Source: Melioribacteraceae bacterium (GTDB lineage Bacteria > Bacteroidota > Ignavibacteria > Ignavibacteriales > Melioribacteraceae). Taken from it: a DNA stretch of 64,000 bases. The stretch's first letter is position 1, and the number at the start of each line of letters is the position of its first letter. Position numbers and translations under genes: made by a program. Positions 38,103 through 41,348 of the stretch are shown one piece after another. Location of the stretch: NCBI GenBank assembly GCA_030584085.1, contig CP129490.1, forward strand, positions 2,823,511 through 2,887,510. Reading direction: 5' to 3'. The notes below the pieces were generated by a model that saw only the letters and a list, made by a program, of their open reading frames with translations, was not told the origin of the DNA and did no database searches.

Positions 38103-38145
38103 AATTGATTATAAGCTGCTACTCTGTCCCAGCTCATAATCAATT
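38103..38145 (-). terminator. 16-base-pair hairpin overlapping the stop codon of the AAA_14 gene
   Basis: AATTGATTATAAGCTG pairs with CAGCTCATAATCAATT; the one mismatch becomes a G-U pair in the minus-strand RNA. The stem includes the TGA stop at 38140-38142. There is no clear T run, so it may protect the mRNA end as well as terminate. Confidence 0.55.
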
Positions 38146-39489
38146 ACTTGTAATAAAATACTCTAGATAATCAAAAATTTTTGTCCCCAAATAATAAGGC
38201 ATATTCATCAATAGAAATTCTTTTTTATTTGGCGATACTACTTTTTGAACTGAAAATTCACCACCGTAAATCCGCACAGCAAATTTATGATTTGTTCTTT
38301 CCATAAACTGATGTAGCGACCTTAGCTTACCGACACTTCCCGATTTAATTTCGACTGGAATTACTTTCCCTTGAAATGGAATTAATAAATCAACCTCCGC
38401 TGATGATTGAGTTTTTTCTCTCACCCAAAAATTTGGTTTAGTATTAGTTAAATTGTTTAGAGAAATAACTTCTTGTGTAACAATATGTGGAATTAAATAT
38501 CCTTTGTAATATGTACTCAAGTCTTTAATCGCTAATAGTTCATTTTGAATCCCGTTTTTATAATTAATTAATCCGGTATCCAAAAACTGTAATCGCGGTG
38601 ATTTTTTCATATCCGGTTTTATCGGAATTTGCACTTCTGTTGAAGGATATATTAAAAATAAAAATCTTGCACTTTCCAATGTTCTCATTGCTTCACCGAC
38701 TTCACGCGATCTATAATTTGAGTTTCCGAAATTTTGAAATTTAACTCGTTCATCTAAGTTGAGATAAGCAGTATTTACTATGTGCCGTATTACATTCAAC
38801 TCTGTCTTATTTGATGCATACTTTGTCATATCATCTTTGAAAGTTTCCCAAAGACTCTCATAAATCCTTTTTAAGTCTGCCAAACTTCTCTTTTCAACAT
38901 AAGTTTTTATTATTTCCGGCATTCCACCAATTATTGCATAATTATTAAAAAGTTCCATCAAAACTGAATGAGCATTTTTTTCAACCGGAATCTTATTTAG
39001 CTGCATAAGAATATTACGGTTTCCTATAGCACTTAAGTATTCTAAAAAATTAATTGGATGCATATAGAGATACTCAACTCTACCTACCGGAAAATTTTCT
39101 ATTTCTTTTAAGGAAAATTCCAAAAGTGACCCTGCGGCAATTACGTGAATCTTCGGGTACTCTTCATAAAAGTATCTCAATAATTTTATCGCTCTAGGAG
39201 ATTCTTGTATTTCATCAATAAAAAGAAGTAACCCATCTATATTCTCGGTAGTTAAATTGTACTTTAAGAGAAGAACATCAATAATGTCTTTAACATTATT
39301 AAATTCTTCAAAAATTTGTTTATCAGATGATTTTTCAAGATTAAGTAGAATTTTATATTTATATCCTTCTGCAAATGACTTTATTAAAGTAGTTTTTCCA
39401 ACTTGCCTTGCTCCGCGTATAATTAGCGGTTTCCGTGAGGGATTTTCTTTCCACTTCAGAAGATCTTCATATATGTTTCTTTTTATCAA
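38140..39489 (-). CDS. AAA_14/DUF4143 family ATPase
   Basis: A 449-residue protein. The Walker A is IIRGARQVGKTTLIKSF (near residues 23-39) and Walker B is LLLFIDEIQESPRAI near 90. YPKIHVIAAGSLLEFSL and GRVEYLYMHPINFLEYL follow. The C-terminal DUF4143 domain resembles a restriction-like nuclease (EVDLLIPFQGKVIPVEIKSG). Family knowledge: such ATPases are often multicopy in Bacteroidota and archaea; their role is unclear. The start is TTG at 39489 with AAGGTG 7 bases upstream. Three 33-base-spaced repeats lie upstream. It is different from the ATPase at 23400-24533. Confidence 0.88.
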   Translation of the reverse strand: MIKRNIYEDLLKWKENPSRKPLIIRGARQVGKTTLIKSFAEGYKYKILLNLEKSSDKQIFEEFNNVKDIIDVLLLKYNLTTENIDGLLLFIDEIQESPRAIKLLRYFYEEYPKIHVIAAGSLLEFSLKEIENFPVGRVEYLYMHPINFLEYLSAIGNRNILMQLNKIPVEKNAHSVLMELFNNYAIIGGMPEIIKTYVEKRSLADLKRIYESLWETFKDDMTKYASNKTELNVIRHIVNTAYLNLDERVKFQNFGNSNYRSREVGEAMRTLESARFLFLIYPSTEVQIPIKPDMKKSPRLQFLDTGLINYKNGIQNELLAIKDLSTYYKGYLIPHIVTQEVISLNNLTNTKPNFWVREKTQSSAEVDLLIPFQGKVIPVEIKSGSVGKLRSLHQFMERTNHKFAVRIYGGEFSVQKVVSPNKKEFLLMNMPYYLGTKIFDYLEYFITSN

Positions 39490-39507
39490 TTTTCACCTTT
39501 ATGTAAT

Positions 39508-39586
39508 ATAACAAGGGTAAATTTAATAATTTTTTGCAGCATAACAAGGGTATTTTTGATTAATTTACGTAACATAGCAAGGGTTA
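39508..39586. repeat. Three direct repeats at 33-base spacing upstream of the AAA_14 gene
   Basis: ATAACAAGGGTAA (39508-39520), ATAACAAGGGTAT (39541-39553) and ATAGCAAGGGTTA (39574-39586) start exactly 33 bases apart, close to three helical turns. The AT-rich spacers also share AATTT. They begin 19 bases upstream of the TTG start, so a promoter or operator array is likely. Confidence 0.75.
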
Positions 39587-39859
39587 ATTTGAAGTGAGAG
39601 AAGAAAACAATTTGGGGTAGACTGGAAATATAAACTGAATACCGATTGATTATCTTTTAAATAATTTTGCCGGTTTTGAGATAGTTAATTTTTTAAAATA
39701 AACTTTTACCTATGTCGATGAATGAACTCGACAGCCGTGAAACTATCATTAATGAATCGCATTAAGAGAAAATAAACCTAGTGAAATCAATTGGACATTG
39801 TTTAGTGAAATAAAATGATACAGAACTGAGGAAGAAAATTAATACGAATTCTATTCTTT
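39587..39859. other. Intergenic region with one possible dispersed stem-loop motif
   Basis: No gene seen. At 39708-39747 the sequence TACCTATGTCGATGAATG, with GTCGA/TCGAC arms and then CAGCCGTGAAA, resembles one at 40732-40771. The remainder is AT-rich. Confidence 0.4.
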
Positions 39860-40678
39860 TCACTTATTCACCCCCTTAAATTCATTTTCCCTAAAAAAAT
39901 ATTCTTTCTCTAGTATTTTTTTAAAATCGATCCAAGATTTTTGATTATTTTCTGAGTACAAGAGAGGCATGGTCACATTCCCATTCTCAATTTTATAAAA
40001 TGTATCCAGTCCGTTTAATTTCATCATTAGTTCATCATAATTAGCCATTGACGGTCTAAACCAGTGCTTTAATGGAAAGGCATAAATAGAATTTATTTCA
40101 AAATTTGGTTGCGGTGATTCTTTAAATGTATGAGGCAGGTAACTTACGGTTATAATATCCCCATTTGAGTAGGCGTGATTACCTTTAAGCACATCGATTA
40201 CTTCAACCACAAGATTTATCTTGGGGACTTTTATTTCTCTTCCTGGTCTACTTACAACATACTCAGATCGTTGTATGTCTAATGCTCTTATTTTAAGGAA
40301 ATATGGTGTTTCCAGGTATAATACATACTTTTTACCGTATCTAATAATGAGCTGATTTTTGAGTGAATCCAATAAAATGTTTGGTTTTATACTCTGTTTC
40401 TCTTGTGACTTTTCCCAACTTTCAATTCTTTCAAGTAATTCTCTTTCAAATTCCATCGGCCAAAAAGCATAACACTGGTATAGGTAATTTTCCAATTTTA
40501 TTATAAATGTTGTATCAGATTGTAAATCTTTTATCATTTCGTAATCATTCTGCGTATTTAAACTTACTTTATCCATAAGAGCAAATAGACTATCAATACT
40601 TTTATTTGTTTGTTGAAATCCCAACAGACTTATACCGCTTAGCACTATTATCAAAAAAATTGTTTTTATTTTTTGCAT
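39860..40678 (-). CDS. Hypothetical secreted protein, 272 aa
   Basis: A signal peptide (IKTIFLIIVLSGISLLGF, about residues 3-20) is followed by a soluble domain. The N-terminal half is helical. The C-terminal half, with VPKINLVVEVIDVLKGNHAY and GDIITVSYLPHTFKES, has the beta-strand pattern of small secreted OB/beta-barrel-like domains. No catalytic motif recognised. Related stem-loop motifs flank the gene on both sides (39708 and 40732). Confidence 0.65.
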   Translation of the reverse strand: MQKIKTIFLIIVLSGISLLGFQQTNKSIDSLFALMDKVSLNTQNDYEMIKDLQSDTTFIIKLENYLYQCYAFWPMEFERELLERIESWEKSQEKQSIKPNILLDSLKNQLIIRYGKKYVLYLETPYFLKIRALDIQRSEYVVSRPGREIKVPKINLVVEVIDVLKGNHAYSNGDIITVSYLPHTFKESPQPNFEINSIYAFPLKHWFRPSMANYDELMMKLNGLDTFYKIENGNVTMPLLYSENNQKSWIDFKKILEKEYFFRENEFKGVNK

Positions 40679-40790
40679 TCTAGTCTCTTATAGTTTTAAA
40701 ATTATTTTTACTTTTTTTGTAAATTAAAATACTACCCATATCGAGGAATGGTCCTCTCAGCCGAGAAAAGATTATCTATCTTTATTCAAC

Positions 40791-41348
40791 CTAAAAATTA
40801 AAATTAACGCCTCCTTTCAGTGATGGACTTACAAGAATATGTGCTTCTTTAGCGGCACTTACACATATTCCAATAGACCAGAAAAAATTGAATCCGTTTT
40901 TCTTGATATTTTCTTTTCCGACATTAAATTCAAAATAATGTCCTTTTACGAATGGTTCATAACCAAGCTTCCAGGGCTGTTTCTTACTTTCCCAGTCTAA
41001 AGTACTATTAAAATAAACTAGATAATCGATTGAGGTTGTATTAAAAAATAGAAAAGGTTTGTGATACGATGCTTTAATCCCAAATCCACTAGCACTATTG
41101 GGAAGCCCCATTGCTGAGGAGCCGATCCAAGTTGCCGACCCTTTTAACGCAATCGAAAAATCATCATTCATCTGATAACCGATCCCGACTGAAATAAACT
41201 CCAAGATGCCAGTATTAAAAGTTACAAAGATGTTTCGTAATTCATTTTCATTAGCTGAATTGGTGGAATCGATTTCTTGAGGAAAGACATTATTGGTTAC
41301 TATAAATAAAAAGAAAACCGAAATAAATTTTCTCACTCTAACCTCCAA
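40791..41348 (-). CDS. Putative outer-membrane beta-barrel protein
   Basis: 185 residues with a signal peptide (KFISVFFLFIVTNNVFPQ) and alternating hydrophobic strands: NIFVTFNTGILEFISVGIG, FSIALKGSATWIG, FGIKASYHKPFLFF and GHYFEFNVGKENI. It ends in an aromatic residue (GVNFNF), as many outer-membrane barrels do. About eight strands fit the length. Function unknown. Confidence 0.65.
   Translation of the reverse strand: MEVRVRKFISVFFLFIVTNNVFPQEIDSTNSANENELRNIFVTFNTGILEFISVGIGYQMNDDFSIALKGSATWIGSSAMGLPNSASGFGIKASYHKPFLFFNTTSIDYLVYFNSTLDWESKKQPWKLGYEPFVKGHYFEFNVGKENIKKNGFNFFWSIGICVSAAKEAHILVSPSLKGGVNFNF

Follow-up and report, generated by a model that had tools for sequence, protein, structure and literature searches.

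The stretch of DNA analysed here, called the window throughout, comprises 64,000 nucleotides of contig CP129490.1 of a Melioribacteraceae bacterium. On the reverse strand of this 3.74-Mb contig lies a gene for an AAA_14/DUF4143 ATPase, and three copies of a 24-nt motif core stand directly upstream of it on the gene strand, at steps of exactly 33 nt (Table 1). The TTG start codon is plausible, judging from a 76% identical relative of the same genus which has ATG at the homologous residue. The PADLOC profile PDLC04788 (PDC-S01) matches residues 1-446 of the protein with an E value of 9.2e-186, and the Pfam families PF13173 (AAA_14, 93.5 bits) and PF13635 (DUF4143, 59.3 bits) are both above their cut-offs. 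AAA_24 and ATPase_2 were matched below the cut-off, no Rep initiator domain is among these four Pfam matches, and the NCBIfam search gave no match at an E value of 0.001. The Walker A (G26-T33) and Walker B (D92-E93) motifs are intact and conserved in the alignments. Towards the C-terminus, D367 and K382 are invariant and E365 and E380 nearly invariant among 78 sequences; they form a PD-(D/E)XK-type signature, by which this part is a putative nuclease. PDC-S01 is described as an ATPase fused to a domain of the PD-(D/E)XK superfamily whose role in phage defence is not validated, and as the fourth commonest defence entry in prokaryotes, with 9,986 archaeal and 29,494 bacterial detections (PMC12988326). 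It is also given as the most frequent single locus in rumen genomes, with 10,358 occurrences (PMC13356809).

Table 1. Features of the AAA_14/DUF4143 locus and its upstream array (positions within the window).
Feature	Position	Strand	Basis or remark
AAA_14/DUF4143 ATPase gene, 449 aa, TTG start, PADLOC PDC-S01	38140..39489	-	
Codons of the PD-(D/E)XK-type signature, E365-x-D367 ... E380-x-K382	38344..38397	-	conservation
Codons for residues 245-303, winged-helix-like, a candidate for DNA binding	38581..38757	-	inferred from predicted helices and strands and from fold matches
Walker A codons, G26-T33 (GARQVGKT)	39391..39414	-	alignments
Motif core copy 3, ATTTACCCTTGTTATATTACATAA	39499..39522	-	adjoins the gene
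Linker of 9 nt between copies 2 and 3	39523..39531	-	weakly conserved; agreement within locus 0.48 over 56 loci
Motif core copy 2, AAATACCCTTGTTATGCTGCAAAA	39532..39555	-	middle unit
Linker of 9 nt between copies 1 and 2	39556..39564	-	weakly conserved
Motif core copy 1, ATTAACCCTTGCTATGTTACGTAA	39565..39588	-	distal from the gene

The array had been drawn to our attention by an earlier note which described three 13-base repeats with starts 33 bases apart, ending close to the TTG start. Both statements hold: the 13-base copies lie at 39508-39520, 39541-39553, and 39574-39586, and the array ends 9 nt ahead of the start codon (39489). The repeat unit is the full 33 nt, since Tandem Repeats Finder reports 39498-39592 as 2.9 copies of period 33, with a score of 106 that is the highest of the 43 rows obtained for the window. 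The self-match score of the upstream region is 28 at a shift of 33 nt, against a best value of 14 among 100 dinucleotide shuffles. The reference unit has 73% identity to each of the other two, and a search with the 24-nt consensus at up to three mismatches recovers two of the three copies, with 0.00 expected. By contrast, the short core alone is not special, and what stands out is the phased array. With one mismatch allowed, AACAAGGGTA is found five times in the window against 3.6 expected, and the 43 matches of TAACAAGGGTA in the whole genome, at up to one mismatch, are fewer than those of the backward control pattern. Therefore, a scattered regulon of the core motif is not indicated. A CRISPR array can be ruled out, because the locus has imperfect 24-nt cores with 9-nt linkers instead of near-identical repeats with unique spacers of repeat length.

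Further upstream, a 22-nt element is common to 39716-39737 (CGATGAATGAACTCGACAGCCG) and 40742-40763 (CGAGGAATGGTCCTCTCAGCCG), each of them intergenic. A search for it at up to three mismatches gave two matches against 0.05 expected, and a 71-nt BLAST query detected no further complete copy in the genome.

The AlphaFold2 model of the protein, built from 78 sequences, has a mean pLDDT of 92.7 and a pTM of 0.91. Among solved structures phmmer found no related sequence at E values up to 1. The first Foldseek matches are ORC subunits and DNA-bound Cdc6/Orc1 (E values of 2.7e-06 to 1e-05, TM-scores of 0.23-0.27), followed by RuvB. In VIA-align the best match is the archaeal ATPase 2qen (PABY2304), with a Z-score of 16.5 over 264 residues and an rmsd of 3.7, and the second is the archaeal ATPase 2fna (SSO1545), with a Z-score of 15.2. 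CED-4 and plant NLR proteins come next (Z-scores of 14.8-14.5), and Cdc6 (1fnn) has a Z-score of 11.6. It is thus well supported by the model that residues 1-313 form two modules, first AAA+ and then winged-helix-like, the part beyond residue 313 being barely covered by the matches. In the predicted structure the N-terminal 310 residues resemble AAA+/winged-helix proteins of the archaeal-ATPase, STAND, and ORC/Cdc6 kind.

Arrays of this kind are found upstream of many related genes. The first set of relatives consisted of 97 genomes (the genome of the window and 96 others), of which 48 hold homologues and from which 30 loci were taken. The upstream self-match, for which 46 shifts from 15 to 60 nt were allowed, was best at 32 or 33 nt and above 100 shuffles in 22 of these 30 loci. 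The threshold score of 15 for an array was chosen after the scores of this first set were known. In an independent scan, of named genomes, 62 of the 80 loci of the long subfamily listed among 570 confirmed relatives score at least 15, with the best shift at 33 nt in 57, at 32 nt in four, and at 27 nt in one; an array at 32/33 nt is present in 61 of the 80 loci listed, and 19 are without one above the threshold. Three of the 80 loci (L124, L126, and L174), which have stops within the match, are included in these counts and were left out of the correlation of motif and protein described below. The second DUF4143 gene of the genome of the window is preceded by two units 33 nt apart (score 17, reached by none of 100 shuffles), with a palindrome-like motif that is unlike that of the window. 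The reading of the earlier note, a cis-element whose periodic sites suggest cooperative binding, would by its own terms fail if no similar arrays preceded paralogues or orthologues; such arrays exist, and the reading is thus supported. What was expected of other DUF4143 genes is borne out for the 32/33-nt arrays and not for the literal sequence CAAGGGTA, which is not conserved across the family: the motifs drift, and those of paralogues differ.

None of the records surveyed is archaeal by title, and the host groups were assigned by hand from the titles. Among the 80 named loci listed, arrays at 32/33 nt were found in 47 of 53 from Bacteroidota, five of five from Spirochaetota, two of two from Cloacimonadota, two of seven from Desulfobacterota and allies, one of two from Acidobacteriota, and in the single locus each from Neomarinimicrobiota, Gammaproteobacteria, Fibrobacterota, and an unclassified bacterium. 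In the same 80 loci they were absent from Aminicenantes (0/2), Verrucomicrobia/Lentisphaerae (0/2), Saganbacteria (0/1), Elusimicrobia (0/1), and Patescibacteria (0/1); paralogues examined later in the Saganbacteria and Elusimicrobia genomes (L257 and L211, respectively) do carry arrays. On contigs called as viral, seven of 19 loci, some of them near-duplicates, have 33-nt arrays above 100 shuffles, 19 of the 20 such loci having been scored. Among six plasmid loci, two have arrays at 32/33 nt (L303, reached by none of 100 shuffles, and L301, reached by one of 100), L306 has an array at 23 nt, and the other three stay below the threshold. Genes of the RteC, AbiEii, and Fic families are annotated next to three plasmid copies, an uncounted observation that fits mobile or defence surroundings.

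When distinct upstream regions were pooled and proteins of 425 aa or more were taken as the long type, an array was present in 92 of 121 regions of the long types (33 nt in 79, 32 nt in 11, other shifts in two) and in 23 of 83 regions of the short types (32 nt in 11, 33 nt in three, the rest at other shifts). Arrays at 32/33 nt thus precede 90 of 121 long types and 14 of 83 short types. In one pooled subset, 13 of 71 loci were left out because the Walker A pattern was unmatched, including L039, which had scored 15 at a shift of 32 nt in the first set, and L031, which was scored in a separate run; in another subset, 19 of 90 loci were removed by the gene filter. The expectation of upstream arrays therefore stands for the long subfamily and for part of the short types, and not for every DUF4143 gene. 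None of the 20 genes examined in a Vicinamibacteria genome with 42 DUF4143 genes has an array at 32/33 nt. In other subfamilies of PDC-S01 the upstream period is 23 nt (L223, L231, L276, and L306), or 46 nt (L200), and the 200 nt upstream of the L276 gene hold about nine near-identical copies of the 23-nt period. The number of DUF4143 genes per genome was noted as 42, 30, 23, 22, and 21 in the genomes G104, G101, G097, G105, and G102 (those of L147, L185, L152, L138, and L159, respectively), the 30 genes of G101 being contained in 1.5 Mb.

Controls were taken from the same loci. Out of 1329 other windows, 41 score at least 15, and only two of these have their best shift at 32/33 nt, both of which precede another AAA_14 gene. 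When the background was limited to shifts of 31-34 nt, six of 1265 windows score at least 15. Three of them precede other AAA_14 genes, two resemble simple or AT-rich repeats, and in the last (L141) two imperfectly matching units precede a different gene. The regions upstream of 215 further genes from these loci, each coding for 150 aa or more, gave 14 scores of at least 15, three of them at shifts of 31-34 nt, and all three belong to AAA_14 genes. In the sample surveyed, hardly any gene outside the AAA_14 family thus has a 32/33-nt array.

Across 74 long-type arrays there are two to six copies per array, and successive spacings are 33 nt in 146 cases, 32 nt in 32, 34 nt in two, and 31 nt in one. 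The consensus AATTACCCTtAcTTTGTTACAAAA could be aligned in 60 of 89 arrays, and a motif model on the reverse strand was better in nine of the 89, mostly where neither strand fits. Within loci, the agreement between units is 0.80 for the 24-nt core and 0.48 for the 9-nt linker (56 loci). This difference speaks for selection on the sites, and against fresh or plain tandem duplication. When the array of the window is compared with that of the 76% identical relative, 17 of 24 core positions are kept in each of the three proximal units, and four, four, and one of nine positions in the linkers. In one locus (L164), and also upstream in L132 and L162, two versions of the motif take turns along a single array, examples being CTTTGGAAATGTTACA and GTTTGGTTTTGTTACA, and TGCCCTGACTTTGTG and TGGGTTGACTTTGTG.

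The distance from the last core to the start codon has a median of 18 nt in the 74 loci. A TAnnTTTG box, which we take to be the -7 box of Bacteroidota promoters, starts 27-30 nt past the start of the last core in 12 of these 74 loci, with about 0.25 expected from 20 shuffles. At this distance from a -7 box, the last site would cover the region from about -40 to -18. In the window only 9 nt separate the array from the start codon, and the promoter of this gene must therefore be sited inside the array or above it. Upstream of L135 and L138, from hosts outside the Bacteroidota, the motif holds TTGACT, which is like a sigma-70 -35 element, and an AT-rich sequence like a -10 element follows about 16-17 nt on.

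The similarity of the motifs follows that of the proteins. For 89 arrays, from a set of 113 long-type genes in which six duplicates were merged and some relatives were hand-picked, motif similarity correlates with protein identity with an r of 0.491, the best of 999 permutations reaching 0.214. Between host groups r is 0.486, against a best permutation of 0.304; here the order of the window was merged with the named Bacteroidota, which a first comparison had kept apart and which may be one phylum. At similar protein identity, motifs are about equally alike between and within host groups, and 19 pairs of paralogues from the same genome have a motif similarity of 1.088, compared with 1.073 for other pairs matched in identity. 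By these values, the drift of the motif follows the protein, not the host group. The array and the gene are physically linked, and therefore common descent alone could yield such a correlation, which by itself is no proof of recognition. In the search for covariation beyond overall identity, 10 of 56 winged-helix columns fall in the top decile, where about 5.6 are expected, and the best single column is G387, near the nuclease.

Taken together, these observations make it probable that the array is the cognate multi-copy operator of the AAA_14/DUF4143 (PDC-S01) gene, bound by the ATPase that this gene encodes and serving autogenous control. Repeated sites lie directly upstream of the gene and are above chance, as expected for an autogenous operator. 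The ATPase would bind its own 24-nt motif, and the steps of 32/33 nt, about three helical turns, would line up several protomers along the same side of the helix. Beside or across the promoter of their own gene, these protomers may assemble cooperatively, and once assembled they would set the transcription of the gene. Repression is the most likely sign of this control and promoter occlusion the likeliest effect. With each gene having its own version of the motif, related genes in one cell could stay clear of each other's control. Should the protein be a defence nuclease, control of this kind would hold its level down until it is needed, presumably upon infection. As an outside hint, a DUF4143 gene of Thermus thermophilus HB27, TT_P0211, is reported to be 6.6-fold up when a plasmid and Argonaute are both present (PMC4406477). 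This gene is of another subfamily and has a CRISPR locus upstream of it, and read-through is possible.

The array could alternatively be a platform on which an ORC/STAND-like ATPase-nuclease is assembled, and stored, activated, or aimed there, with any effect on transcription being secondary. Gene-adjacent arrays with integral-turn spacing are reminiscent of plasmid iterons and of the archaeal origin boxes beside cdc6. The fold matches include DNA-bound Cdc6/Orc1 and RuvB, the two to six copies per array exceed what a simple repressor needs, and the PD-(D/E)XK signature at the C-terminus is conserved. Nonetheless, the constant distance of the TAnnTTTG box from the last motif, seen in 12 of 74 loci, points to transcription, and the annotations around the few plasmid copies covered showed no partner gene for replication or partition. 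This alternative appears unlikely.

It is improbable that the ATPase gene is under the control of a different protein, from the host or from a neighbouring gene, which binds the array. At similar protein identity, motifs from different host groups resemble each other about as much as those from one group, the paralogues within a genome are hardly more alike in motif than other pairs, and each array tested, in two complete genomes, is single-copy; BLAST with the 151-nt array region of the window found no second copy in its own genome, the next best match being 21 nt with an E value of 0.02. The encoded protein is thus a simpler candidate for the reader of the array than a host factor, which would need to be shared across phyla and yet to recognize a different motif before each paralogue.

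That a mobile element which includes the ATPase gene has its end in the array, or its target for transposition, homing, or integration, is a similarly remote prospect. In its favor, when 1.5 kb on each side of the 76% identical gene from the same genus (L034) are compared with the window, only the gene, with the frames inside it, matches, and relatives occur on plasmids (539 records) and on contigs called as viral (20 loci). Against it, arrays were sought and found upstream only, no second end was found, the downstream side having been covered as background windows only, and the two complete genomes hold no matching copy elsewhere, where a target site would be expected. An action of the repeats as RNA, or as the code for a leader peptide of 11-residue repeats, can be rejected with little hesitation, since, even though 33 nt equal 11 codons and one gene-strand frame is open through the array of the window, the 181 spacings include 32 of 32 nt and three of 31 or 34 nt, which breaks any frame, the array of the window folds as by chance (z of 0.03; four other arrays, L278 left out, have z from -0.47 to -1.90), and the Rfam scan of 39400-41000 gave no family at the gathering score.

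Returning to the cognate operator, the closest known systems each share part of its features. The likeness to PDC-S01 extends over residues 1-446 of the protein, and the upstream array is what is added here. Archaeal Orc1/Cdc6 proteins have origin recognition boxes beside cdc6, and resemble the system of the window in the AAA+/winged-helix fold, as modelled here, and in the repeated motifs that adjoin the gene. They are among the fold matches, but 2qen, 2fna, and the STAND proteins score higher and the whole-model TM-scores are low (0.26); moreover, the protein of the window differs by its nuclease-type C-terminus, and no origin function is known for the array. Plasmid iterons are alike as direct repeats upstream of the gene of the presumed binder with phasing near whole turns. 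Their spacing is about 22 nt, however, while that of the window is 32-33 nt, next to a gene without a Rep domain on the 3.74-Mb contig. For the archaeal ATPases 2qen and 2fna, the best structural matches, the alignment covers residues 1-313 and omits the nuclease-like C-terminal part. The STAND proteins, with Z-scores of 14.8 (CED-4), 14.6 (RPP1), and 11.7 (Avs5), are alike in the AAA+ and winged-helix modules, whereas the 449-aa protein of the window is without sensor repeats; to our knowledge, STAND proteins have no upstream arrays.

Operator arrays and iterons are known kinds of elements, and what appears to be new, in that it was not found in print, is the family-wide occurrence of self-specific arrays at 32/33 nt upstream of a leading defence candidate that is not validated. 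The search covered open-licence papers in PubMed Central, and in these neither an upstream array nor a mechanism was found described for PDC-S01.

A further and rather doubtful extension is that the ATPase-nuclease is held on its private boxes at 32/33 nt, perhaps at 23 nt elsewhere, which would act both as a switch and as a safe harbour, and that foreign DNA, replication, or loss of the gene displaces and releases the complex. If this holds true, the divergence of the boxes would insulate the copies from each other, which would explain how 20 to 40 such genes can exist in one genome.

From this pattern, a very common gene family seems to come with a control switch of its own, the arrays spanning several bacterial phyla. 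The conserved, self-specific, and phased site offers a handle on this family, given that it provides for each protein a candidate DNA ligand of known sequence and a regulatory circuit that can be tested. The array is also a signature from which gene starts can be set and subfamilies told apart. Provided that the proteins do bind their boxes, dozens of orthogonal pairs of protein and operator would already be present in genomes.
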